From: a virus | IMG/VR virus record: IMGVR_UViG_3300010297_000097 | Coordinates: 1-22,489 of that record | DNA length: 22,489 nucleotides | Direction: 5' to 3' (one strand) | In this document: piece after piece, positions 2,103-20,600 of the stretch | Position numbering within the stretch: the first letter of the stretch is position 1 | How the letters are laid out: each line of letters begins with the position of its first letter | The notes under the pieces: generated by a model | Database searches by the model: none | What the model saw: only the letters and a program-made list of their open reading frames with translations | Told to the model about the DNA's origin: nothing | Position numbers and translations under genes: made by a program

Positions 2103-4586
2103 ATGGCATCGACAACAGGAAATTATACTAGAACTCCTTCAAGGACTACACAATTAAAAGACTCTGGCCCGTATGAAGCCATTGTAATTAACCACCTTGA
2201 CAGAAAATTCATGGGTGGCTTAGAAGTTGAAATTTTAAAATATACTGGTTCTGGTTCTACACCTGAAAGAACAGGTCAGTTAGCAAACGTTCGTTATTTG
2301 ATGCCATTTTATGGTGTTACTCCTAACAAAGGTTTAACAGAAAATGAAGGATTTCAGTATACACAAAAAAGTTACGGAATGTGGATGGTACCACCAGATA
2401 TTGGTACAAGAGTTCTTGTAATATTTGCTGAAGGCGATTTAAACATGGGATATTGGATTGGATGTATCCCAGAAGATTACATGAATTTTATGGTTCCAGG
2501 AGCTGGACAAGCATCAACAGAACGTGTAACAAATCCACCTGTTCCTGGAAAACTTCCAGTTGGCGAATACAATAAAAAAATTGAAACAGGACAGACTGTT
2601 GACCCAACATTATTTAATAAACCTTATAACAAAGATTTTACAAACGTTTTAGAAAACCAAGGGTTATTACAAGATGAAGTAAGAGGAACTACAACATCAA
2701 GTGCTAGACGAGAAGTACCAAGTGCTGTTTTTGGCATTAGTACTCCGGGTTCAAGAGATAGACGTGCAAATGCCCCTAGATATGAAATTGGTGCAAACCC
2801 AGAAAAAATAGATGTACCTTATAACAGACTAGGCGGACATAGTTTTGTTATGGATGACGGTGATTCCAACTTTATAAGAAAAGAACAAGCAGAAAATGGT
2901 CCACCAATTTATGTTAACAAAGAAGCCGGAGAAGCAGGTGGCGACGAAACAATTCCTCAAAATGAATTGCTACGCCTTAGAACTAGAACCGGACATCAAA
3001 TATTACTACATAATTCGGAAGATTTAATCTATATCGGAAATGCTAGAGGAACAGCATGGGTTGAATTAACAAGTGATGGAAAAATTGATATACATGCTCA
3101 AGACAGTATTAGCATAATGACTGAAAATGATTTAAACATTACAGCAGAACGTGATGTTAACATTGAAGCAGGACGTAATATTAATATGAAAGCAACTGCA
3201 CGTTATAGCAAAGGTGCTAAATTTGATGCACGTGGTCTAGAAAGTGGCAGAATGCAATTTGAAACCCAATGGAACTATAATTTAAAAGTTTATGAAGAAG
3301 ATTATAAAATTTGGGTTAAAAGAGACAAGCATGAATATATTCTAAGAGATCATTATATTGATAATGATAGATTTTTCCATTTACAAAGTGGCGAAGATAA
3401 TAGGTTTACAACTGAAGGGTCTACTCATATTAAGAGTGCAAGAGAACACAGAGAAACTGCAACATTTATTCATATGAATGGCCCTGCCGCAGCACCAGCA
3501 GCACCTGCATTAGAAGTTATTCCGTTACCTACAGTAACATTGCCTTATGTTTTTCCAGGTAGCACAATTCCAGTTACATACGAAAGTATACTAACAAGAG
3601 CTCCGCAACACGAACCTTGGCCGCATCATGAAAACATGAATCCATTAGCATATAAAAAGCCTGAAACTGATAGAGAAGCCCCAGGAGGACTTCCTGCATC
3701 TGATATTATTATAACTCCAGATACATTTGCTAAAAACAAAGCATCTAGAGTTTGTAGCGTTTACGTTCAAGGCTCAGGAGGCGGCATAAATTCCGGAAAT
3801 GTTGATAGTCGTGCTGGAGGTTCTGGAACTGGTACAGGACAAGTACCTAGAAGAGACTATAATTCAAATGTACAAATTCCAGAAGATGGAAACTATCGTC
3901 TAGGAACATTGTCAGCAGCATACGAATCAGGAAGAGATGGCCCGCTTGCAATTGGTTGGGACAGCACAGGCGGCTGGAGTTACGGACAATACCAACTTGC
4001 TGCAAATACAGGTGCAATGGGAGAATATATTGGTTGGGCACAATCAAATGCTCCAGCAGTTTATGAAGCACTTACAAGAGCCGGCGGAGACTCTGCTGCA
4101 AGGAATGGCAGTGATACATTTAAGCAAACATGGCAAACTGTTATGACAGACGCTGGCGCTGCTGAATCTCAGCATGAATATATTGCAAGCAAGTATTATG
4201 GCGGCGGCGTAAGATCAATTAGAAATAGAACTGGTGTTGATCTAAGTACAAGATCGCCGATAGTAGGTGATGTTATTTGGAGTACAAGTGTTCAGCATGG
4301 GGCAGGCGGAGCAGCAAAAATATTTGAAAGAGCATTCCAAACACTTGGCACACAAAATCCTAGCGATGCTGCACTTATTGAAGCAGTGTATAATGAAAGA
4401 GGTAGAGATAATGGTAATGCATACTTTGGCAGAAGTACACCAAGTGTAAGAGCAAGCGTAGTTAACAGATTTAGAAATGAAAAAGCAGACGCACTTCGCT
4501 ATCTTGCACAATACACTGAAGCACAGGACCGCCCAGTCCTCGCACAAGGACAAGTAGTGGATGACACCACTCCAACAGTAGGTTAA
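2103..4586 (+). CDS. 5: baseplate central spike gp5-like, with C-terminal lysozyme-like domain
   Basis: This is the cell-puncturing spike at the centre of the contractile-tail baseplate. Residues about 22-135 form the gp5/VgrG-type OB-fold, with the motif VPPDIGTRVLVIFAEGD at 96-112. Residues about 290-370 are a repetitive polar beta-helix (LNITAERDVNIEAGRNINMK), the trimeric needle of this family. A Pro-rich linker with a His cluster (H503, H508, H509 in a HEPWPHHEN context) follows. Residues about 595-815 form a lysozyme-like domain with the YESG glutamate E608 and the SYGQYQL signature at 626-632, as I recall from VgrG-3-type muramidase domains. At 827 residues it is much longer than T4 gp5 (575). 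In T4 the lysozyme domain sits between the OB-fold and the helix; here it comes after the helix. The next gene, gp25, follows by seven bases. The gp5-type identity is firm; the hydrolase activity is inferred. Confidence 0.9.
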   Translation: MASTTGNYTRTPSRTTQLKDSGPYEAIVINHLDRKFMGGLEVEILKYTGSGSTPERTGQLANVRYLMPFYGVTPNKGLTENEGFQYTQKSYGMWMVPPDIGTRVLVIFAEGDLNMGYWIGCIPEDYMNFMVPGAGQASTERVTNPPVPGKLPVGEYNKKIETGQTVDPTLFNKPYNKDFTNVLENQGLLQDEVRGTTTSSARREVPSAVFGISTPGSRDRRANAPRYEIGANPEKIDVPYNRLGGHSFVMDDGDSNFIRKEQAENGPPIYVNKEAGEAGGDETIPQNELLRLRTRTGHQILLHNSEDLIYIGNARGTAWVELTSDGKIDIHAQDSISIMTENDLNITAERDVNIEAGRNINMKATARYSKGAKFDARGLESGRMQFETQWNYNLKVYEEDYKIWVKRDKHEYILRDHYIDNDRFFHLQSGEDNRFTTEGSTHIKSAREHRETATFIHMNGPAAAPAAPALEVIPLPTVTLPYVFPGSTIPVTYESILTRAPQHEPWPHHENMNPLAYKKPETDREAPGGLPASDIIITPDTFAKNKASRVCSVYVQGSGGGINSGNVDSRAGGSGTGTGQVPRRDYNSNVQIPEDGNYRLGTLSAAYESGRDGPLAIGWDSTGGWSYGQYQLAANTGAMGEYIGWAQSNAPAVYEALTRAGGDSAARNGSDTFKQTWQTVMTDAGAAESQHEYIASKYYGGGVRSIRNRTGVDLSTRSPIVGDVIWSTSVQHGAGGAAKIFERAFQTLGTQNPSDAALIEAVYNERGRDNGNAYFGRSTPSVRASVVNRFRNEKADALRYLAQYTEAQDRPVLAQGQVVDDTTPTVG
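3885..4547 (+). other. lysozyme-like (muramidase-type) domain at the C-terminus of gp5
   Basis: This covers residues about 595-815 of the spike protein. The glutamate in AAYESG (E608) is in the place of a catalytic Glu, and GGWSYGQYQL follows 14-24 residues later, a spacing seen in transglycosylase and lysozyme folds (E-S-G, then S-x-G-x-x-Q). A helical remainder with SxQHGAGGAAKIFERA and a YNERGRDNG segment completes it. The substrate would be host peptidoglycan, reached when the tail contracts. The assignment is by motif only. Confidence 0.65.
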
Positions 4587-4593
4587 ATACAGT

Positions 4594-5031
4594 ATGAGCG
4601 AATTAGAAAAACAGTTATATAAAAGGGTAAATGTTCCGGCAAAGCCTAAAACTGAAAGTACAGGCCGTGCTTACAGAGGCTTTTCTACGGTTGCCCAAGA
4701 AACTAACGATTGGTCTTTGTACGACTTTGAATTAGTTAAACAAGATCTTCTAAATCACTTCCATATACGTCAAGGGGAAAAATTAAGTGATCCAACATTT
4801 GGGTGCATTATATGGGATTTATTGTGGGAACCTTTTACAGACGACATACGAACTTCAATAATTAACAACGTAACTTCAATTGTTAATTACGATCCTAGAC
4901 TACAGGCTAGTGAAGTCATTGTAGATACTTTTGAACATGGTATACAAGTACAAGTAACCGTTACTTTTATAAATTACAATATTTCCGAAACACTAAAATT
5001 TAAGTTTGACCAAAATATTGGTTTAAATTAA
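4594..5031 (+). CDS. 25: baseplate wedge protein gp25
   Basis: This small wedge protein of the gp25/GPW family is found in contractile tails and type VI secretion baseplates, where it joins gp6 and gp53 in the wedge core and helps start sheath assembly. The 145 residues compare with 132 in T4. The family core is clear: LSDPTFGCIIWDLLWEPF at residues 64-81, then a helix and NYDPRL at 98-103, in the place of the family's conserved acidic-Pro-Arg motif. After this come the beta strands VIVDTFEHGIQVQVTVTF. An N-terminal extension of about 35 polar residues precedes the domain. The start at 4594 is seven bases after the gp5 stop. There is no strong ribosome binding site, only AGG 11 bases upstream, so translation is probably coupled to gp5. 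In T4, gene 25 lies in a different cluster, away from 5 and 6; here it lies between them. Confidence 0.93.
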   Translation: MSELEKQLYKRVNVPAKPKTESTGRAYRGFSTVAQETNDWSLYDFELVKQDLLNHFHIRQGEKLSDPTFGCIIWDLLWEPFTDDIRTSIINNVTSIVNYDPRLQASEVIVDTFEHGIQVQVTVTFINYNISETLKFKFDQNIGLN

Positions 5032-5080: not shown

Positions 5081-8000
5081 ATGTCATCTACAGATAGACA
5101 GTCAAGATTATTAGTAGCAGAGGACTGGAAACGAATTTATCAGTCCTTTCGTAATGTAGATTTTGAAAGTTATGATTTCGACAATTTGCGTCGAACAATG
5201 ATCAACTATCTACGTCAAAATTATCCAGAAGATTTTAACGATTATATTGAATCAAGCGAATTCCTTGCGCTAATTGATATGATTGCCTTTTTAGGCCAAA
5301 ACCTTTCCTTCCGTATTGATCTTAATGCAAGAGAAAATTTCCTTGAAACAGCCGAGCGTAGAGAAAGCATTTTACGTTTGGCACGTATGCTTGCTTATAA
5401 CCCAAGACGTAATCAGTGTGCAAACGGCTTACTAAAAATTACAACAGTTAAATCTACAGAAAACATATACGATTCAAATGGTCTTAATCTAGCAACTACA
5501 ACAGTTAAATGGAATGACCAGACAAACAGTAACTATTTTGAACAATTTATCAAAATATTGAATTCAGCTCTACCTGTACAAAACACTATAGGTAATCCTT
5601 TAAAACAAGCAACTATAGCAGATGTTGTAACACAAAAGTATAGAATAAACGGAACTAATACAAAGCAAGCAATTTATCCTTTTACTAAACGTATCGAAGG
5701 AAAAAGCACACGTTTTGAAGTGGTAAGTGTAGACATACAAAATGATGCATTAGTTGAAGAAGCACCACTTCCAGGTATAAGTCCAGCATTTTTATTTAGA
5801 GATGATGGACAAGGTGCTGCAAGTGCAAATACAGGATTTTTTATGCACTTCCGTCAAGGTAAACTTGAAGAAGGAACCTTTTCAATTACAAATCCAACAC
5901 CCAATCAAGCAGTTACAATTGACTCTGAAAATATTAATGATACAGACGTTTGGTTATATAGTGTTGATAGTGTTGGAATTGAAACAATACCTTGGACAAA
6001 AATAGACAGCGTTGAAGGCAACAATATCATTTATAATAATCTTTTCCAAGGAATTACAAATGTATTTGCTGTTAATACTAGAATAGGAGACAGAATCGGT
6101 CTAGTGTTTAGCGACGGAGTATTTGGATCGTTACCAAGTGGGAATTTCAAAGTCTATTATAGAACTAGTGCTAATAGAGGAATGGTTATTTCACCAACCT
6201 CTATGCAAAGAATTAATATAGATGTTCCTTACCAATCAAGAAACGGAACACTAGAAACCCTTACAATAGGACTTGAATTAAGATACACAGTTGCTAATTC
6301 ATCTCCAAGTGAAACTAATGACGAAATTAAATCAAATGCACCTGCAACCTATTATACACAAAATAGACTTATAACTGGTGAGGACTATAACATAGGGCCA
6401 TTAGCAATAAGTCAAGATATTGTTAAAACAAAAAGTGTAAACAGAATTAGTTCAGGAATAAGTCGTTACTTTGATTTAAAAGATACAAGTGGAAAATATA
6501 GCAATACTGACTTGTTCTCTACAGACGGAGTCATTTACAAAGAAGAATTTGAAGAAAAAACTAAATTTAGTTTTAACACACAAAGTGACATTGAAGGGGT
6601 TATTAATAATACTGTAGAAAGCATTATAACAAGTGCTTACGTAAGAAACTTTTATCTTAATAATTTTCCTCGTACAATTATTAGTGATCTAAACGTTAAA
6701 TGGCAAGAGGCTACTAGCGCAAACAATTATTATACAGGTAATGTAAAAGATATTGATGACGTTTTAGTACAAGTTGGTTCATTTACAGGTAATAGTTTAA
6801 GATATATTGAAGAAGGTGCGCTAGTCAAATTCGTACCTCCTACAGGTTACTATTTTGATTCTAACAATGAATTACAGTTAGGCTCTGCAACTAAAAAAGG
6901 TACAAAGGAATATATTTGGTCTAAAATTGTAAGTGTACAAGATGATGGAACTAATATCGATGATGACGGTTTTGGAGCCATAATTATAACAGATTACATA
7001 CCAACAAATTCAATACTACAAGAAATAGTTCCAAAGTTTAATCGAACAATTAACAATGACTTAAAAGTACAAATTATTGACCAAACTTTTGAATATAATG
7101 ATTTTGCTTTAAGATATAACACCGGAGATAGAGAATGGAGTTTAATCTTAGCAGAAGACATTAATACAACAAATGACTTTGCTGTTGGTAAAACAGGTGA
7201 TACTAGCGGTCAAAATCTTGATGCTAGTTGGTTACTTAGATTTAAAACTGACGGCGATACTTACGAAATAACATATAGAAATTTAAGATTTGTTTTTGAA
7301 AGTGATACAGAAATTAAATTCTTCTTTGATAGTGCTGACAAAGTATATGACACTAAAACAGGAAAAACTTATAGAGATCAAATTAATGTATTGAGTATTA
7401 ATACTCAGCCTGGATTAACAAGTGCGTATAATCGAGATTTTAACTGGACTATCCAAGATGCTTATAGAGACGTAGAAGGCTATGTAGATACTAAAAAAAT
7501 TATTGTCAATTATCTCGACAGCGACGACGATGGTGTTGTTGACGATCCAGAACTTTTCGACAAAATTGTTGATTATGATAATACTTCAGTTGCAAATGAA
7601 GACAAGATTATTTTCCAAGAAAGATATTACACATCAGATAATGTAGAAAACTATAGATACTTTGCAAATGATAATAATACTATTCTTATTGTTAATAACG
7701 AAGCAGCAATTGGTCCTTACAGTTCACGGGAAGAAGGACAAATATTCTATCTTTTAGAAGAAAAAGTTTTTAAAAAATTAAACAAAGCATTGAATAACAC
7801 TTCTTTGGTAATTGATTACAAAGCATACGAAGGTAGATCTAATTTAAAATTCCACTATGCGCATGTTGCAGATAGTAACTATAGAATCGATCCTGCTGTA
7901 AGTAATATTATTGATACTTTTGTTTTAACTAAAAGTTATGATACAAGCCTTAGAAGATGGTTAAAAGCCGACTCAGGACTAAAACCATTGCCGCCAAGCA

Positions 8001-8614
8001 ACGACGAGTTGTACAGAGAATATGGAGCAAAAATTAATAATATTAAATCTATAAGTGATGAAGTAATTTATCATCCAACACGTTATAAAATTCTGTTTGG
8101 AGCAAAGGCAGTGCCAGATTTACAAGTATCATTTAAAATAGTTAAAAATTCTAATCTTGTTGTAAACAATAACGAATTGAAGGCAGATATTATTAGTTCT
8201 ATAGATAGATTTTTTGCACTTGAAAATTGGGACTTTGGAGAAACTTTTTACTTCCAGGAACTAAGTGCATATGTAATTTCGCAACTAAGTCCAAAATTAG
8301 TAAGTTTCTTAATGGTACCAAAGCAAGTATCTCAATCATTTGGTAGTTTGTTCCAAATTAAATCAGAACCCGATGAAATTTTAATTAGTGGCGCAACAGT
8401 CAGCGACATTGAATTCATTGATGAGATTACAGCAGCAGCATTACAAGCATCAGGTGATGTAATACAAACAACTGATGACACAAATTATACTGCAATTCAA
8501 AGTAGTGTAAGTAATAATACAACGTACACATCAAGTTCGACTACTTCAACTACTTCAACTAGCACGTCTAGTACAAGTAGTACGTCATCTAGCAATGGAG
8601 GCTATAGTTACTAA
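5081..8614 (+). CDS. 6: baseplate wedge protein gp6 (enlarged)
   Basis: gp6 forms the dimeric wedge core and the inner ring of the baseplate that holds the hub and switches on sheath contraction. The N-terminal 110 residues are the diagnostic block: AEDWKRIYQSFRNVDFESYD (13-32), NYPEDFNDYIESSEFLALID (47-66) and LNARENFLETAERRESILRLAR (81-102). The C-terminal part resembles the baseplate J/gp6 end (NWDFGETFYFQELSAYVIS, then SPKLVSFLMVPK). At 1177 residues it is nearly twice T4 gp6 (660). The extra length is mainly in the middle, where there is a perfect EF-hand-like loop at residues 813-824 (D813, D815, D817, G818, D821, E824). The protein ends in a run of 22 Ser/Thr residues (1150-1171) followed by NGGYSY. 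It follows gp25 after 49 bases, with its own late-promoter-like box. Its stop codon overlaps the next start (TAATG). Confidence 0.95.
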   Translation: MSSTDRQSRLLVAEDWKRIYQSFRNVDFESYDFDNLRRTMINYLRQNYPEDFNDYIESSEFLALIDMIAFLGQNLSFRIDLNARENFLETAERRESILRLARMLAYNPRRNQCANGLLKITTVKSTENIYDSNGLNLATTTVKWNDQTNSNYFEQFIKILNSALPVQNTIGNPLKQATIADVVTQKYRINGTNTKQAIYPFTKRIEGKSTRFEVVSVDIQNDALVEEAPLPGISPAFLFRDDGQGAASANTGFFMHFRQGKLEEGTFSITNPTPNQAVTIDSENINDTDVWLYSVDSVGIETIPWTKIDSVEGNNIIYNNLFQGITNVFAVNTRIGDRIGLVFSDGVFGSLPSGNFKVYYRTSANRGMVISPTSMQRINIDVPYQSRNGTLETLTIGLELRYTVANSSPSETNDEIKSNAPATYYTQNRLITGEDYNIGPLAISQDIVKTKSVNRISSGISRYFDLKDTSGKYSNTDLFSTDGVIYKEEFEEKTKFSFNTQSDIEGVINNTVESIITSAYVRNFYLNNFPRTIISDLNVKWQEATSANNYYTGNVKDIDDVLVQVGSFTGNSLRYIEEGALVKFVPPTGYYFDSNNELQLGSATKKGTKEYIWSKIVSVQDDGTNIDDDGFGAIIITDYIPTNSILQEIVPKFNRTINNDLKVQIIDQTFEYNDFALRYNTGDREWSLILAEDINTTNDFAVGKTGDTSGQNLDASWLLRFKTDGDTYEITYRNLRFVFESDTEIKFFFDSADKVYDTKTGKTYRDQINVLSINTQPGLTSAYNRDFNWTIQDAYRDVEGYVDTKKIIVNYLDSDDDGVVDDPELFDKIVDYDNTSVANEDKIIFQERYYTSDNVENYRYFANDNNTILIVNNEAAIGPYSSREEGQIFYLLEEKVFKKLNKALNNTSLVIDYKAYEGRSNLKFHYAHVADSNYRIDPAVSNIIDTFVLTKSYDTSLRRWLKADSGLKPLPPSNDELYREYGAKINNIKSISDEVIYHPTRYKILFGAKAVPDLQVSFKIVKNSNLVVNNNELKADIISSIDRFFALENWDFGETFYFQELSAYVISQLSPKLVSFLMVPKQVSQSFGSLFQIKSEPDEILISGATVSDIEFIDEITAAALQASGDVIQTTDDTNYTAIQSSVSNNTTYTSSSTTSTTSTSTSSTSSTSSSNGGYSY
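7517..7552 (+). other. EF-hand-like calcium-binding loop in gp6
   Basis: Twelve residues, DSDDDGVVDDPE, match the Ca2+ loop pattern D-x-D-x-D-G-x-[IV]-D-x-x-E at every ligand position. A LFDKI helix-like stretch follows. Only a single loop is seen, as in dockerin or thrombospondin-type-3-like loops, with no paired hand. Confidence 0.55.
8528..8593 (+). repeat. Ser/Thr-only coding tract at the 3' end of gp6
   Basis: Twenty-two consecutive codons encode only Ser or Thr. Within the tract, the 9-base unit ACTACTTCA is repeated twice plus ACT (8540-8560), while the rest uses mixed AGT, AGC, TCT, TCA, ACG and ACA codons. It therefore looks selected at protein level and not like a simple slippage repeat. 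Confidence 0.8.
8596..8601 (+). promoter_or_regulatory. ribosome binding site for the giant gene, inside gp6
   Basis: TGGAGG within the last codons of gp6 is 12 bases before the ATG at 8614, slightly far for an optimal site. With the TAATG overlap of stop and start it suggests that the giant protein is made by re-initiation after gp6. Confidence 0.5.
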
Positions 8615-11600: not shown

Positions 11601-14600
11601 TAGCAATCCTGGGTTTGTGTATGTGTTTGCAGACTTTGTCGAAGAAGGTGACACAATAACTGTATACGAATATAATTCAACTGATGGTAGTTATATTCCG
11701 CCGACTCCGACTAAATTAGGACTATATCCAAAATTTGAACCTGAATTAGTTTATGATGACACTTACAGACCAGAGCAAGGCGAGTTTCCGGAAGATGGAA
11801 CTCCTTATAAAATTTACGCACAATCTGAAAAAGGTTTTAGAGGTGAAAACCAAATTGGTTGGTTCTATCCTTTGTATACTGATATAGCATCGGCACAGCA
11901 GAAAGATATAGATGAAGGTGGTACAGGTGTAGCACACAGGCATATGTTCAAAGGATCGAACTTGGTATTGTATATGCCTAACACTGCATTTAATCATGCA
12001 ACTATTGATAGCGCATTATATGATCCTTATCCGTTTGGCGTTCCGATGATTAGAGGCCACGACGGTAGTTATGTTAGATGCTATAATGATTATAGAGATA
12101 AACTTCTTTTAGAATTAGAAAAAAGAATTTTTAATAATATTAAGATAGAGTACGACTCTACTAAATTAGATGTAGACAAATTTGTCGGCGGCGAGTTTAG
12201 AGATAGTGAATTTACTAGAGAAGAAATTAACACAACACTTCTTAGAACTTTCTCTGATTGGCTTACTTTCTTAAACAATGATTATACTGATCATTATTTT
12301 TATTTAAGACAGGATGAATTTACATTTAACTATTCTGCTATGAATTCATTCCAAGGAAATTCTATTCCAGGTTTTTGGAGAGGAATTTTCATGCAACTCT
12401 TTGATACTGATCGTCCGCATACATGTCCGTGGGAAATGCTCGGATTTAGAATCAAACCAAAGTGGTGGAACGAAGTTTATGGTCCAGCACCATATACAGG
12501 TGACAACTTATTAATTTGGGAAGATTTAGAACAAGGTAAAATTGCAGAACCTGGAAATGTAAGGTACGATACTCGTTATGAACGTCCAGGATTGACATCA
12601 AAAATTCCTGTAGATTCTGACGGAAATTTGATTAGTCCGCTACGTTGTAATTTACTTGATAATTTTATACTACGTCCAACCTCAGATAATTTTGCATTTG
12701 GCGATTGGGCACCAGTAGAAAACGCATGGCGCAGAAGTTCTGAATATCCGTTTGCATTACTAACAACGATGGTTCTTAATAAACCTGCAGAAACAATTGG
12801 TTTGGCTTTTGATATTAGCAGAACACAGAAAAACTTTGCTAATCAGTATATCTACGATGCGACAAGTAAAACAATCGAACTAGATCAAATTTTACTTCCT
12901 AACACAGTCGATTCAAATCAGCGTATAATGACAGCAGGCCTTGTAAATTATATTTCAAATTTAATTTCAAGTAATGTGTTAACTGTTTATGAAGATTACA
13001 AAAATGAATTAAAATCTGTAACTAATAGACTAGGGGTAAAAATTGGCGGATTTACTGATAAACAAAAACTAAGTGTTATACTAGACAGCAGAAGTATTGT
13101 TGAAGATCAAAGCCAAGATAGTGTTTTTGTACCACAAGAAAATTATGATGTATTTTTAAACACAAGTTCTCCTACAGATCTAGTAACTTATTCAGGACTT
13201 ATTATTGAAAAATTGGCTAATGGATTTGTTATAAGAGGATATAGTAAATCTAATCCGTACTTTGAGTATTATATTCCTAGTGCAGGAAGTAAAAAAACAA
13301 ACATTACGGTTGGAGGAATATCTGAAGTAACAACACAATGGGAAGAAGAAAAACCTTATATAAAAGGACAAGTTGTTGAAAATAATGGACGCTATTACAG
13401 AGTAAAACAAAGTTTTACATCAGGACAACAATTTGATACAGAAAATCTTGCACTACTAGGATCTCTACCAATTGTTGGCGGCAAGACAGCAGAGTTTAAT
13501 AAAAACTTTGGCAAAACTGTTTATAGAATTCCATACGGACATAGATTTTCTTCAAGTCAAGAAGTAGTTACTTTTATATTAGGTTACGCAGAAAGACTAA
13601 AAGACTTAGGATTTGAATTCAACTATACAGTAGACGGTCGCCAAATTGACGATTGGTCAGATTCTGCAAAAGAATTTTTGTTCTGGACCACCCAAGGTTG
13701 GGCTTCTGGGACTGTTCTTTCAATAAGTGCTTCAGCAAATAGGTTGTACTTTGACAAAGACTATAATGTAGTCGATGATCTATCAGATCCTTTCTATGGA
13801 TATTCTGTATTTGACGAAAACGGTTCGCCGCTTGAAGCAGATACTAGAAGCATTTTAAGAGACCAAAATAGTTTTGGAATAGAAACAATCGGAACAGATC
13901 ACGGTTTATATCATGTTGCACTTCCTACTGTACAAAAAGAGCATGTTGTAATTTTTGATAATAAAACTGTTTTTAACGACATTTTATATCAGCCATCATC
14001 AGGATATAGACAAGAACGCTTAAAAGTTAATGCTTATAGAACATCAGATTGGCAAGGTGGATTTAATGTTCCTGGGTTTGTATTTGATGATGCACGTTAT
14101 TCAACATGGACAGAATACAAAGATTATCAAATTGGCGACTTAGTAAAATATAGACAATATTATTATGTTGCTACTACTAATATCATAGGATCAAATATAT
14201 TTGATAACACTGTTTGGTATAGACTAAGCGAAGAACCAGAGAAGAAATTGTTAACAAACTTTGATTATAGAATTAATCAATTTATGGATTTTTATGATCT
14301 CGACAGTGTCGGGTTTGACGAATCACAACAAGAGTTGGCACAGCACTTAGTCGGATATCAAAAACGTCAATATCTAGCAAATATTATCAATGATGATGTT
14401 AGTCAGTTTAAGTTTTATAATGGATTTATTCAAGACAAAGGAACAGCAAACTCTGTTAAAAAACTTTTTGATTCGTTAGCAGGAAATACAGAAGAAAAGG
14501 TTGAATTGTTTGAAGAATGGGCAGTTCAAGTTGGTAGATATGGTTCTACTGAGAATGAAAAACAAATAGAATATAAGTTAACCGATTCTAAGTTAGAAGA

Positions 14601-17600
14601 GTCTCCGCAGATTTTTGAACTTGCAAATTCTCGTCCGGCAGAATTTGATAAAATTTATAGAATATATCCTTCTGAAGTTTATGATAAACCACAAGGGTAT
14701 GTGCATACTTCTGCATTGCCGGTAAAATCTTCAATAAATGAATATTTAAAAACAGGCGGGTATGTAAACGAAAATGATGTTACTTTTGTAAGTTATGATA
14801 AACAAGAATTACTTGGCGCAGATATAAATCAAGTTGAGTTAGGATCTTATATTTGGTTAGTAGAAACAGGTGCAGACGACTGGACAGTTTACCAAATTAT
14901 TGATACAGACATTAAGGCAACTGACTTTGTAAAAGAAACAGGAGTTTTTACTGATAAGGGAGAACCCTTGTCAGAATTAACACTAGATCAGTGGACAAAT
15001 GCAAGAATTGAAGAGAAAGAATATTTTGGCATATTAAATGCGTTTCGATTTAACATAAGCGGAATATATGAAGTATACGATGCTACACTTAATAAAATAC
15101 AATTTAATTCGGGTGAAGATGCAATTAACTTTGAAGACCAAAACTTTTCACTAGTTAAACTAAGAAAAGTTAGAGTTTCTAATTTAGCAACATTAAATGA
15201 TTTAGTTCAAGAAAAGCAATACGACGGACAAAAGTTTTGGGTAGACAATTACTCTAACGGTGTTTGGAACGTTGTTGAAAATAATCCTGTCTTTTCTCAA
15301 AGACAAGTAATGTCAAATCCAAGCGAGTATGACGGAACTAATCACGAATTTGGAAAAAATATTGCTGTTAGTGCTAATAACAGAGTGCTAGTTGTAGCAT
15401 CACCAAATGACGAAAATGGAAAAATTAATGTTTATGTAAGACCTAGAGAAAATAGCAACTATGTTGTTAAACAACAGATACAATTTGTTGATTCAACACT
15501 ACTTGATGTTAATAATACAAGATTTGGACATAGTGTAGATATATCACCTGACGGTGAATATATTGTTGTTGGTATGCCAAGAGCATCTGGTGTTAAAACA
15601 AGATATAAAGGCGACTTTGATCCAACATTACAGTATACTAAAGGAGATGTTGTAAAATACAGAGAGAGCATCTGGCAAGCTCTAAGAACAATTAATCCAC
15701 AAACCGGAAGCCAATCATTCACAACATTTGACTCTTATCAGTCATTAGTTGCGTTTGAAGATACTGACTCAACAAACAGCGTGTTATTAGTTGCAGGTAA
15801 TCCAGGATTACCTAATAATGTTGTTGACCATCTTTTAGTTAGAGCTCCGCTTGATATGTATCTTGGAACAAAAGCAAGAGATTTTGCTGCTGATACTCCT
15901 GGAGATCAAATTTTCTTAGATTGGAACTTAAGAAGTTATGCTAATCCAACACTAGACGACTATTATCCTTTTGATAACAACCTAACAGGAATTACACCTT
16001 CGTGGCTCGGAAGAACCCAAGGTCACGAAATTATTTTCAAAGTTGACTACATTGTGTATGTTGATACTTTTATAGCATTACCGGCAGTCGGCGAATTTGT
16101 AACAACTAATACAGGCCGCGCCGAAGTTGTTTATGTTGACACTAGCGAAGATAGTGCTGTTATATATGTAAAAGATACAAACGGTGTATTTGATATCTCA
16201 GGTGAATTGTTTATTGATGACGAAGACTTTGTTGGATTATATACTCTGGAATCAACTTATACAACAAGTGAACAAGTTGGCGGCTATTGGTTAATCAAAA
16301 CATATAACAGCGATGATCGTCCAGCAGTTGATTGGGAAAGTGAAATATCTGATGGCGATGGATTTACTTATGATAATATTGAAACTTGGTACGATGCAGG
16401 TAGAGGTTTAGTATACTCGGATGTTTTACTAGCCGAAGGCGGCAGAGATCCAAATGAGTATTACAACATTCAAACAACAGTAAGTGCAATCGGTACATAT
16501 GTCCTTAATAAAAATAGAACAAGTTGGGGAACTCAATTATCTTTCCGCGGAGATCCTACTATTGATGAAAACGATGGACAAGATGGATTTGAAAGATTTT
16601 GTCAATCTAACTATTGGGTACTAAGAGTTGGTAAAGAATTTTCAGATACACTCAACGGCGACGAAACATTTAATCTACAGTTTTATGACTTAGAAAATAG
16701 AGAAGTAGATTACGAAGCCGCTGCACTAACAGATGCTATTGTAAATGCACAACAAACAATAGTAGACATGTGGGACGGGTATATTGATTTTGAACTATCA
16801 AGATTTGATGCTTCAGGTTTCCCCTTCCAACCGCAGCCAAGATGGTATCACGAAGCAGACGGTACATTAAACACAACTGATAGAACCCAAGGCGATGTAA
16901 TTATTGATGTTCAGACAGCAAGCGATGGCGCGGGCGGCCTTGCTATAAGCCCACTGTCTCCAACCAGTGCTGCTGAAGTAATATACTTGCAAAGAGACTT
17001 CAATAAGATTAGAGTCTACGTTAAGATTCTTGAAGAATATAATGGAATAACTTACGGCGGAGATTTTACACAACTTAATAATATTGGTAGATATGAACTA
17101 AGACGTATCGGAAATGAAGATTTAAGAGGCGCAGGAGATGTTGACAGAACGTTTGCTGAAATAGATGATGCTAACAACGATATTGTGGTTGGCACAACTC
17201 AAGTTGGCAAATTACTAGTTTTCCAAGAAGACAGTATTTCAACTTTCAATAATAATATTAGTTGGGAAGATACTGTTGAATTTATTGATGAAGAATATTA
17301 TTTCTTCAATGAAAATACAGAAAGCGGAATTACTAGACCTGCTAACCCTCCATATGGGCTAAACAAAGATTATAAACAAATTTATCATTTGCCTGCAAAT
17401 TCTACAGGTGTTGCTGGTCCAGATCTTTCTGGTGCTATTGCAATTTATAGAAGACGTAAAGAAGGATCTTATGAATTAAAACATACACTAACTAGTTTGT
17501 TTTATGATGAGAATAGACAGTTTGGACACAAAGTAAAATTAGTACAAACTGATCGAGATTATACGTTATTTGTAGGAACTAGAGGTTTAGATGCTCCAGA

Positions 17601-20600
17601 AGAGTTAGGAGATTCAACTGTTGGTAGAAGAGAACATCCAGGCGAGATTGAAATTTTCCGTCATGGAGTTATTCCAACTGATAACTTTGCAGGACAGTAC
17701 CAAGATAGAGCATATGTAGAAGATGAAATTGTAACATATGAAGATCAATATTTCAGAGCAATTAGAGCAGTGCCTGTAGGTATTAATCCTCAATCTCCAG
17801 AATATTGGAATGATATTAGTTGGAAATACGGAAAAGACATCAATTATAGAGGAAACTGGGATAATTCTTACAGTTATGCTGAAGGTTCTATTGTTATTAG
17901 AGAACAAACAAAAATTTGGCTTGATGGATTAAATGGCGAACCACTTGCTGGCCAAAGCATAACATTCACTTCAGTTGATGATTCTACTATTATTGTTAAA
18001 ACAATAAATGCTGTTGACGGCAATGCTGTTATAATTGACGGCAACCATTACGCAGAATTTTTAACATTTGATTGGTCTCCAAAAAGTATTGTTACAATTA
18101 ATGGGTTTGATACTATAACTGCAACTGGAATACAAAACGTTTCAGTTATTAAAAAATTGTATCAAGCTCAAACAAATATTGGAGTAGGAGCAGAGTTTTC
18201 TAATACTGGATGGTCCCAACTAAGCAATAAAATAGACTACCTAGGATATTTGCCAAACTTAACAGGGCAGAGTTTGTACGATGAAGAAGTTTTTGATCCC
18301 GTACAAAATATTATTGATTTTAGTGAAACGTTTGATGTAAGCAACGACAGACAAGTGCTTATAGTCAAAGCCAATCTCAAAGAATCAGATAGTACTACAA
18401 AAACAAGATTAGTAGTATATAGATTAAACGATAACAAGTATCAACTAGACCAAGTAATTTCTGCACCGACAACAATTTTTAAAACTGTAGAAGAAGTCAC
18501 CGATCAAATTGTCATTGACATATCTGATATATTAATATCTAATACTACAAGAGAAGATGACATAATTCTTAGAATAAATGATCAACGTAAAGGATATGTT
18601 GGCGGCAGATGGACCCTAAATAACAACTTAATTACAGTCAATGATGTTGCTAAAAATGATGTAATTGAAATAACTGTTTATAACGAAACAACTGCTTGGG
18701 GCGAACGTGTTAGCCTTAACGACAGTGGCGATAAATTTGCTGTTAGTGCTAAACTTGATGATACTGCTGGAACCGATAAAGGTGTAGTATACATTTACAA
18801 ACAAATTAACGGAAGATTCCAAGTTGACCAAATATTAAGATCTCCACAAAACGAAGTAGCAGAGCAATTTGGTCATGGATTATACTTTGGATCTGATAAC
18901 TTAGTTGTTTCTAGTTTAAACGGAGATCAAATAATTCCAACAACATTTGACGGAACGTCGATAGGAAACACTGAACCTCAAACAACATTTGATAATAAGT
19001 TTACTTCGTTTAGAAATATTAAACTAGATAAAGGTGTAGTATATGTTTACGAAGACTTAGAAAATCAATTAGTGTTCGGCGAAAAATTAATCTATCCTTC
19101 AGTGCAAACAACATTTGGTGAAAATCTGTTTAGTTACGGCAACCATATATATGCTGGCATACCACGTCAAACTAACGAAAAATCTGTAGGACAAGTTATT
19201 GATTTTAGAAAAAATGCTGGTTATACTGCTTGGTCGTCAATCGATCAACAAATATTACCTGTAGATGTTGATAAGATTAGTGGCTTAATGTTATACAACA
19301 AACGTAAAAATGAACTCATTAGCAGACTAGATTATATTGATCCTCTACAAGGAAAAATAGCAGGTGTTGCTGAACAAGAAATTAACTACAAGGCAGGATT
19401 TGACCCAGCAGTATACAATACAGGACTTACAAACGACTTTTTAGTTGATCCTGCAAGATTCTGGGGAAATGAACACGTTGGCGAAATATGGTGGGCAACA
19501 AACACTGCTAGATTTGCTTATCCTTATAAGGGATCAGTTAACTCTCAAAAGAAAGATTGGAATAACTTGATAGCTGGATCTAACATTGATATTTTTGAAT
19601 GGGTAGAAAGTGAATTTGTTCCATCTGGATGGGATGAGCTTGCTGATACAGATGAAGGTTTGAAAAAAGGAATAAGCGGTCAGTCATTATATGGCAATAC
19701 AAGATATACCACTCAATTAGAATACGATAAACTTGCCCAAAATTTCCGTGCAAAATATTATTTCTGGGTGCAAGGCAAAAGAACGAAACCTACAACTCAT
19801 AAGCCTAAAAGAAAACTTAATACTATTGACATTGCAAGATTAATCGAAAATCCTAGATTACAAGGATATAGATATGCTTCGCTTATTTCAAAAAATACAT
19901 TTATTCTTAATAATTGTAATGATTTAATCCAAGGCGATGATGTTGTACTACAAATTAGATACAAAGAAGATGAAACACAAAATATAAACCAGCACAAAGA
20001 ATACCAAATTTTAAGTGAAGGTCTAGAATCAAGTGTTCTGCATCCAACTATTGAAAGAAAGTGGTATGACAGTTTAATTGGGTTTGATTTAAACAACAGA
20101 CCAGTACCTGATATTAATGTTCCGTCAAATAAGAGATACGGAATTCAAAATGTTCCTAGACAAAGCATGTTTCAGAATAGATTTGAAGCATTAAAACAAA
20201 CTATTGAACGAGCTAACATTGTATTAGGCGAACAGTTATTAATTGATACATACGATTTAAGCGAACTTCAAAGAAAAGAGCCTTTGCCTTCAAGCGTTTC
20301 AGGCGAATTTGATCTAAGTATTGCAACATATGATGATTTAAGATTTGTAAGCACTAACAAAATTACACAAGCAGAAATTGAATTAATTATTAGTAATGGA
20401 CGTATTATTAGTACAAACATTATTAATCCAGGACGTGGCTATAAAGTTGCACCTTCATATAACTTAGAAGGTCCTGGATCTGGCGCAATTATTGACTTTG
20501 AAATAAATTCTCTAGGACAAATTACCAATGTTATTATTGGCAATAGCGGCACAGGGTATTTAGAAAATACCAAATTGATAGTACGTCCATTTAGTGTATT

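Follow-up and report, generated by a model that had tools for sequence, protein, structure and literature searches.

The integrin-type beta-propeller is defined by seven blades in one closed ring, an FG pair in strand 1 and a Cage/GAP proline in every blade, and DxDxDG Ca-binding loops in blades 4/5-7 (PMC3192720); the published integrin geometry puts the Ca sites in loops 1-2 and 3-4, with the FG-GAP/Cage motifs at the other end. In alpha-I integrins a vWA domain is inserted between propeller blades 2 and 3 (PMC3192720), and the propeller and the beta I-like domain together make up the platform that carries it (PMC10518620). The same propeller fold occurs in phages, in the stand-alone FG-GAP virion protein gp054 of cyanophage S-TIM5 (407 amino acids) and in a protein of Atu_ph07. 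Here we describe a propeller of this type in IMG/VR virus fragment IMGVR_UViG_3300010297_000097, of which the whole stretch analysed (positions 1 to 22,489; the window, 22,489 bases) carries a run of baseplate genes and then a giant frame, P0001. The P0001 gene lies directly after a gp6-like gene, its frame is open at the window end, and its orthologues are ~4.3-5.6 thousand amino acids long. As relatives of gp5, gp25 and gp6 are encoded just upstream, gene order and relatives support P0001 as a baseplate protein, the wedge at the gp7 position. A complete, closed seven-blade propeller appears to be set into this protein and to be interrupted by two large inserts, insert 1 in blade 2 and insert 2 behind strand 3 of blade 3.

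To obtain a structure of the region, a contiguous 1187-residue segment of the L003 orthologue (63% identical) was modelled with AlphaFold (AF2) on a 53-sequence alignment, with a predicted local distance difference test score (pLDDT) of 86.3 and a predicted template modelling score (pTM) of 0.68, a value that leaves the placement of the inserts against the propeller uncertain. VIA-align superposed this model on integrin alphaM (7usl_A) with Z 32.1 and a root mean square deviation (rmsd) of 3.4 over 356 residues. The aligned range covered model residues 16-1170, opposite integrin chain residues from 1, so that both inserts are bridged and the N-terminal closing strand is included. The 50 VIA-align matches listed were all integrin alpha chains, alpha-I integrins being the highest, and the best Foldseek match of the model was integrin 5e6s_A (E 2.5e-8); a sequence search for a relative of the propeller among solved structures gave none at E <=1. 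A closed seven-blade FG-GAP/integrin-type propeller is thus well supported by the prediction, and the first-pass annotation of the window, which had proposed a propeller from the sequence, agrees with the modelled fold, in which the blades stand in one ring. Like the integrin alpha subunits alphaM, alphaL and alphaX, the predicted propeller has seven blades, mostly of four strands, with an aromatic-G strand 1 in most of them, an N-terminal strand that would complete the ring at blade 7 and, next to blade 2, an additional domain.

FG-GAP-like blade motifs start at residues 2246, 2304, 2970, 3236, 3362, 3419 and 3501 of P0001, and the seven blades counted in the first-pass annotation are borne out by these motifs, by Pfam FG-GAP_2 (PF14312) and by blade profiles. 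Six of the starts (2246, 2304, 2970, 3362, 3419 and 3501) had been placed correctly; the supposed blade at 2914 is actually YGLNKDYKQIYH ('YG'), which belongs to insert 1 and precedes strand 3 of blade 2 by 26 residues, and the real fourth blade at 3236 had been overlooked. This blade reads FSETFDVSNDRQVLIVK, its F being invariant (53/53 relatives) and followed by S, A or T, never by G. An aromatic residue with G is present in 6/7 window blades, blade 4 having FS; most relatives show FS in blade 1, and most show WA in blade 5. The Cage/GAP proline, read by eye in the window sequence, was evident in blades 1, 2 and 7 only and not in every blade. FG-GAP_2 scored above its curated cut-off in the window (24.3 vs 23 bits), reached 30.5 bits (E 4.3e-7) on the propeller region and matched 13/13 members of the first alignment at E <=0.1, with L003 the best (7.6e-11, 42.5 bits). 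The single-blade profiles matched one another, the best pair at P 5e-11, and scored higher among themselves than against controls (Mann-Whitney P 9e-9; the controls were nine insert segments). The window protein and the relatives L003, L197 and L229 resemble other FG-GAP_2 proteins in passing the cut-off; unlike those proteins, the P0001 propeller is part of a giant phage wedge protein and has split blades.

Two long insertions had been noted at first reading and both are present, at other positions and of other lengths than supposed. The first, given as ~550 residues after blade 2, comprises ~617 residues (2323-2939) and separates strand 2 from strand 3 within blade 2; the second, given as ~330 residues after blade 4, comprises ~214 residues (3019-3232) and comes behind strand 3 of blade 3. 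When the two parts of blade 2 were joined with insert 1 left out, nearly the full length of this blade aligned with blade 5 (P 5.1e-11, 53 columns) and with blade 4 (P 1.3e-8), which places insert 1 within it. In L022 and L197, which lack the first module of insert 2, a possible strand 4 sequence comes directly after strand 3; the 3-4 loop is therefore the probable site of the first module, and the second would fall in the link that leads to blade 4. These positions in inter-strand loops are consistent with the inserts protruding from the propeller, and, going by the published geometry, the 2-3 loop of blade 2 that holds insert 1 should share a face with the alpha-I insertion. Unlike alpha-I integrins, in which the vWA domain stands between blades 2 and 3, P0001 carries an all-beta insert within blade 2, in the loop from strand 2 to strand 3, and a second insert after strand 3 of blade 3. 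The window has two further extras, of ~70 residues between blades 4 and 5 and of ~80 residues in insert 2, which are mostly without counterpart in the aligned relatives. In L012 and L013 an extra CBM5/12-like module was observed in the blade 1-2 link, a third insertion point.

Relatives of P0001 provide natural variants at this one site. One of them, L229, carries at the same site of the same protein a seven-blade propeller without interruption, contained in 493 residues (L229:7338-8816). Its aromatic-G or GW sites lie at 35, 99, 166, 228, 280, 337 and 421, it has no CBM-like module inside, and FG-GAP_2 scores 26.2 against the cut-off of 23. The blade columns of the window family, with the insert columns left out, aligned with L229 from end to end (415 columns, P 1.2e-17), and the proposal that the propeller is closed and seven-bladed once the inserts are removed is in this way matched, at sequence level, by a natural homologue. 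The L197 clade (~27 contigs, 50-100% identical to L197; FG-GAP_2 61.8 bits in L197, whose propeller segment is L197:8843-10645, 601 amino acids) has a propeller in which blade 2 holds a single CBM5/12-like module and another follows blade 3. Both inserts are present in 154/156 relatives long enough to judge. The giant virion protein of PA5oct, RaK2 and their relatives has colinear flanks and the same place after gp6, and was found by mass spectrometry in PA5oct virions; in PA5oct the flanks align contiguously across the site, which is apparently empty, and no propeller was found in RaK2, Vibrio 2.275, SCTP-2 or Phosso, though their flanks are colinear. A hidden propeller in the corresponding stretch of these five was also considered and set aside, there being no Pfam family and no blade hidden Markov model (HMM) match. 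Other sequence occupies the propeller site in Phosso (L025; giant protein residues 1683-3200, parts of which match the C-terminal region of the window protein) and in SCTP-2 (L026; residues 1962-2385, LamG-like by eye), and the site may be an insertion hot spot. In a tree of the flanks L229 branches outside every other sequence that bears a propeller. Support for the backbone near the L197 clade is low (0.48, 0.69), and the tree suggests but does not prove the order of gains and losses; the L197 clade may have lost insert 1 secondarily. The platform on the phage baseplate seems to have grown stepwise.

We looked specifically at the content of the inserts. Pfam CBM_5_12 matched 13/13 members at E <=0.1 (best 6.4e-10) and passed its cut-off in L003, the window's own copies scoring below it. 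Two more CBM5/12-like copies were seen upstream of the propeller, at residues 1575-1605 and 1832-1873 (window 13336-13428 and 14107-14232), bringing P0001 to ~5 copies. Chitin-binding CBM5 modules usually carry a tryptophan pair; it was not apparent by eye in the three propeller modules (IWQALRT, YFRAIRA, LYQAQTN). Insert 1, folded (AF2) from the window itself with pLDDT 88.7 and pTM 0.82, is predicted to be compact and mostly strand with short helices only, and hence not a vWA domain. It contains an internal duplication (profile match P 4.1e-5), and the two halves of the blade-2 module (2331-2381 and about 2908-2927) are >500 residues apart in the window lineage. Read from the alignments, the blade-2 CBM-like module is split by a duplicated all-beta unit of ~540 residues, a nested insertion, and the order of nesting would run from wedge protein to propeller, blade 2, CBM-like module and inner duplicated unit.

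Part of insert 1 resembles domain V of T4 gp7 (5hx2_A 766-843; VIA Z 7.1, a weak match at a level where unrelated models often reach 7-8; 69 residues, rmsd 2.3, 23% identity). Pfam Gp7_5th matched the corresponding residues weakly (E 0.095), as did an HMM match on gp7 781-801 (E 9.5e-4 at Z=1, 5.5 bits) and hhalign (P 0.027). Insert 1 as a whole had no Foldseek match at E 0.001, the domain-V-like part alone being matched later. As these domain-V-like matches coincide and the gene follows gp6, the reading of P0001 as a much enlarged gp7-type wedge protein is suggestive. P0001 is like T4 gp7 in standing directly after gp6 and perhaps in a domain-V-like fold, here in insert 1; unlike it, the N-terminal half of P0001 (residues 1-2209) shares no overall profile match with the single sequence of the 1032-residue gp7 (P 0.17), although remote homology is possible. 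T4 gp7 and gp10 were both tried as relatives of this half, with no convincing match. In T4 gp7 (L110, P0007) an Asp-box-like SNDKGQTWKAV was noticed at ~213-223, within a part that no Pfam family matches (about 90-640), and this motif hints at a different, BNR-type propeller upstream of the helical domain.

Regarding function, we favour a structural mounting platform as the best explanation, at a probability of about 0.6. The CBM5/12-like modules would be carried in the connecting loops of blades 2 and 3, and the propeller would form a rigid peripheral platform on each wedge with the inserted modules directed outward, as the integrin propeller bears the alpha-I domain. The main job of such a platform would be the holding of neighbouring wedge or fibre proteins and, secondarily, perhaps the touching of host-surface glycans; the term 'display platform' used in the first-pass annotation is plausible. 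Insert 1 is compact, almost always present and conserved to the same degree as the blades (0.56 vs 0.46-0.60 mean pairwise identity), which argues for a structural role over a fast-evolving receptor-binding tip. Conservation within P0001 is lowest in the propeller region and the 180 residues that precede it (pairwise identity 0.36-0.46 vs 0.52-0.64), as expected for a peripheral part.

The first-pass annotation had proposed that the inserts make contact with the host, and their CBM5/12-like modules might bind cell-surface glycans, making the propeller an adsorption device. This is a tentative second choice. The CBM_5_12 matches across the alignment, the ~5 CBM-like copies, the low conservation of the region and a module number that varies among relatives all speak for it, but hypervariability is not seen in insert 1, whose mean pairwise identity of 56% is like that of the blades and which is present in nearly all testable relatives; the tryptophan pair of chitin binders appears absent, and one relative encodes fibre-like proteins in genes of their own downstream, of which one has a tail-collar motif. 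The downstream proteins of L004 measure 220, 684 and 634 amino acids. Rather unlikely is a folded spacer, in which propeller and inserts were captured at a permissive site and serve only for bulk or reach; the empty site in PA5oct, the other sequence in Phosso and SCTP-2 and the many lineage-specific insertions would suit such a role, yet relatives down to ~27-32% identity retain the seven blades and the core of insert 1, with many invariant residues. An equally doubtful possibility is that the phage evolved, independently of animals, an integrin-like adhesion head, a propeller platform on the baseplate bearing an inserted domain beside blade 2, that grips or senses the host surface and signals the wedge for tail contraction, built stepwise from no propeller to bare propeller, CBM-like loop modules and finally a module split by a wedge-derived unit. 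That no propeller exists, the FG motifs falling in loops of separate beta-sandwich domains, is very improbable given the integrin match (Z 32 over 356 residues), the uninterrupted relative L229 and the FG-GAP_2 score above cut-off, even with blades 3, 6 and 7 matching some others weakly.

Several points weigh against a propeller platform on the baseplate as drawn here. The modelled chain is the L003 orthologue in place of the window segment (~1330 amino acids), its pTM bears on how propeller and inserts are placed, and strand 4 of blade 3 is unclear in it. Blades 3, 6 and 7 match some other blades weakly in profile comparison, and no D.[DN].[DN]G Ca-binding loop was found anywhere in P0001, in which the propeller is unlike that of the integrin alpha subunits. 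The gp7-like fold match is weak, the baseplate placement of P0001 rests on gene order and relatives, and presence in the virion is noted for the PA5oct relative only, by electrospray ionization tandem mass spectrometry (ESI-MS/MS).

The coordinates of the propeller, its inserts and the neighbouring genes are given in Table 1. Relatives number at least 566; one of them, L001, is 99% identical over the query region and lies on a 52.8-kb contig. The carriers are uncultured, mostly marine phages, with no isolate of the group found in the phage collection, and are probably very large (jumbo), because other contigs with P0001 relatives reach 335 and 358 kb. The Photo_RC family, a sign of a cyanobacterial host, was absent from 12 records. 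The PHROG family of P0001, phrog_10938, is filed under 'head and packaging'; it is probably a baseplate family, because the window's member follows the gp6 wedge gene. The 335-kb contig L112 (PBPT01000016.1), binned in a Neomarinimicrobiota metagenome-assembled genome, carries the propeller gene and is therefore probably a mis-binned jumbo phage. In L007 (357,559-base contig) Phage_sheath_1 (PF04984) had no match at E 0.001, despite baseplate wedge genes, and its sheath may be divergent.

Table 1. Positions of the predicted propeller, its inserts and the adjoining baseplate genes in the window.
Feature	Window position	P0001 residues	Strand	Basis
gp5-type hub protein, VgrG3-like C-terminal domain	2103..4586		+	Pfam T6SS_VgrG3-like_C E 2.3e-35; phrog_13211 E 1.5e-49
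gp25-type wedge protein	4594..5031		+	Pfam GPW_gp25 E 5.2e-9
gp6-type baseplate wedge protein	5081..8614		+	phrog_10646 E 1.3e-294
Giant wedge-position protein P0001	8614..22488	4625 amino acids in window, 3' end cut	+	phrog_10938 virion structural protein E 0
N-terminal closing strand, predicted outer strand of blade 7	15298..15315	2229-2234	+	DSSP of model; opposite integrin residue 1
Blade 1	15349..15507	2246-2298	+	alignment, blade profiles, model strands
Blade 2, strands 1-2	15508..15579	2299-2322	+	blade profiles, model strands
Insert 1, strand 2-3 loop of blade 2	15580..17430	2323-2939 (~617 residues)	+	blade profiles, model strands
First part of CBM5/12-like module, head of insert 1	15604..15756	2331-2381	+	Pfam CBM_5_12; module HMM; contiguous in L197
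gp7 domain-V-like fold in insert 1	16039..16260	2476-2549	+	VIA match to 5hx2_A; weak sequence support
Second repeat of insert-1 unit	16735..17073	about 2708-2820	+	internal profile match P 4.1e-5; HMM dV2
C-terminal end of split CBM5/12-like module	17335..17394	about 2908-2927	+	alignment with contiguous L197 module
Blade 2, strands 3-4	17431..17505	2940-2964	+	blade profiles, model strands
Blade 3, strands 1-3	17515..17667	2968-3018	+	alignment, model strands
Insert 2, after strand 3 of blade 3	17668..18309	3019-3232 (~214 residues)	+	two CBM5/12-like modules (3025-3070; 3078-3206), module HMMs
Extra insertion, ~80 residues, inside second module of insert 2	17908..18150	3099-3179	+	alignment, module HMM
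Blade 4	18310..18465	3233-3284	+	blade profiles, model strands, conservation
Extra insertion, ~70 residues, between blades 4 and 5	18466..18675	about 3285-3354	+	alignment
Blade 5	18676..18849	3355-3412	+	Pfam, blade profiles, model strands
Blade 6, long strand 2-3 loop	18850..19101	3413-3496	+	model strands, conservation
Blade 7	19102..19248	3497-3545	+	model strands, conservation

Seven-blade FG-GAP propellers, a stand-alone phage version and insert-bearing propellers (alpha-I integrins) are already known; what is new is the split, nested propeller within a giant wedge protein. S-TIM5 gp054 is a separate gene, not set in a wedge protein, and its similarity is weak (31% over 105 residues, E 9e-3). 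No annotated phage record similar to the window propeller was found at 1e-5, the L197 sequence giving weak S-TIM matches only, and our search gave no relevant paper describing FG-GAP propellers in baseplate proteins or virions of phages, most subscription literature being beyond its reach.

The variants line up as a natural series, all at a single site of the same protein: an empty site, a bare propeller, small modules and a nested large unit. With natural forms at hand that have and lack the inserts, how giant phage baseplate proteins grow by the nested insertion of domains becomes directly testable. The locus also adds an independent case of the beta-propeller as a mount for inserted domains, comparable to the alpha-I integrins, and assigns a fold to part of a large family annotated only as 'virion structural protein'.

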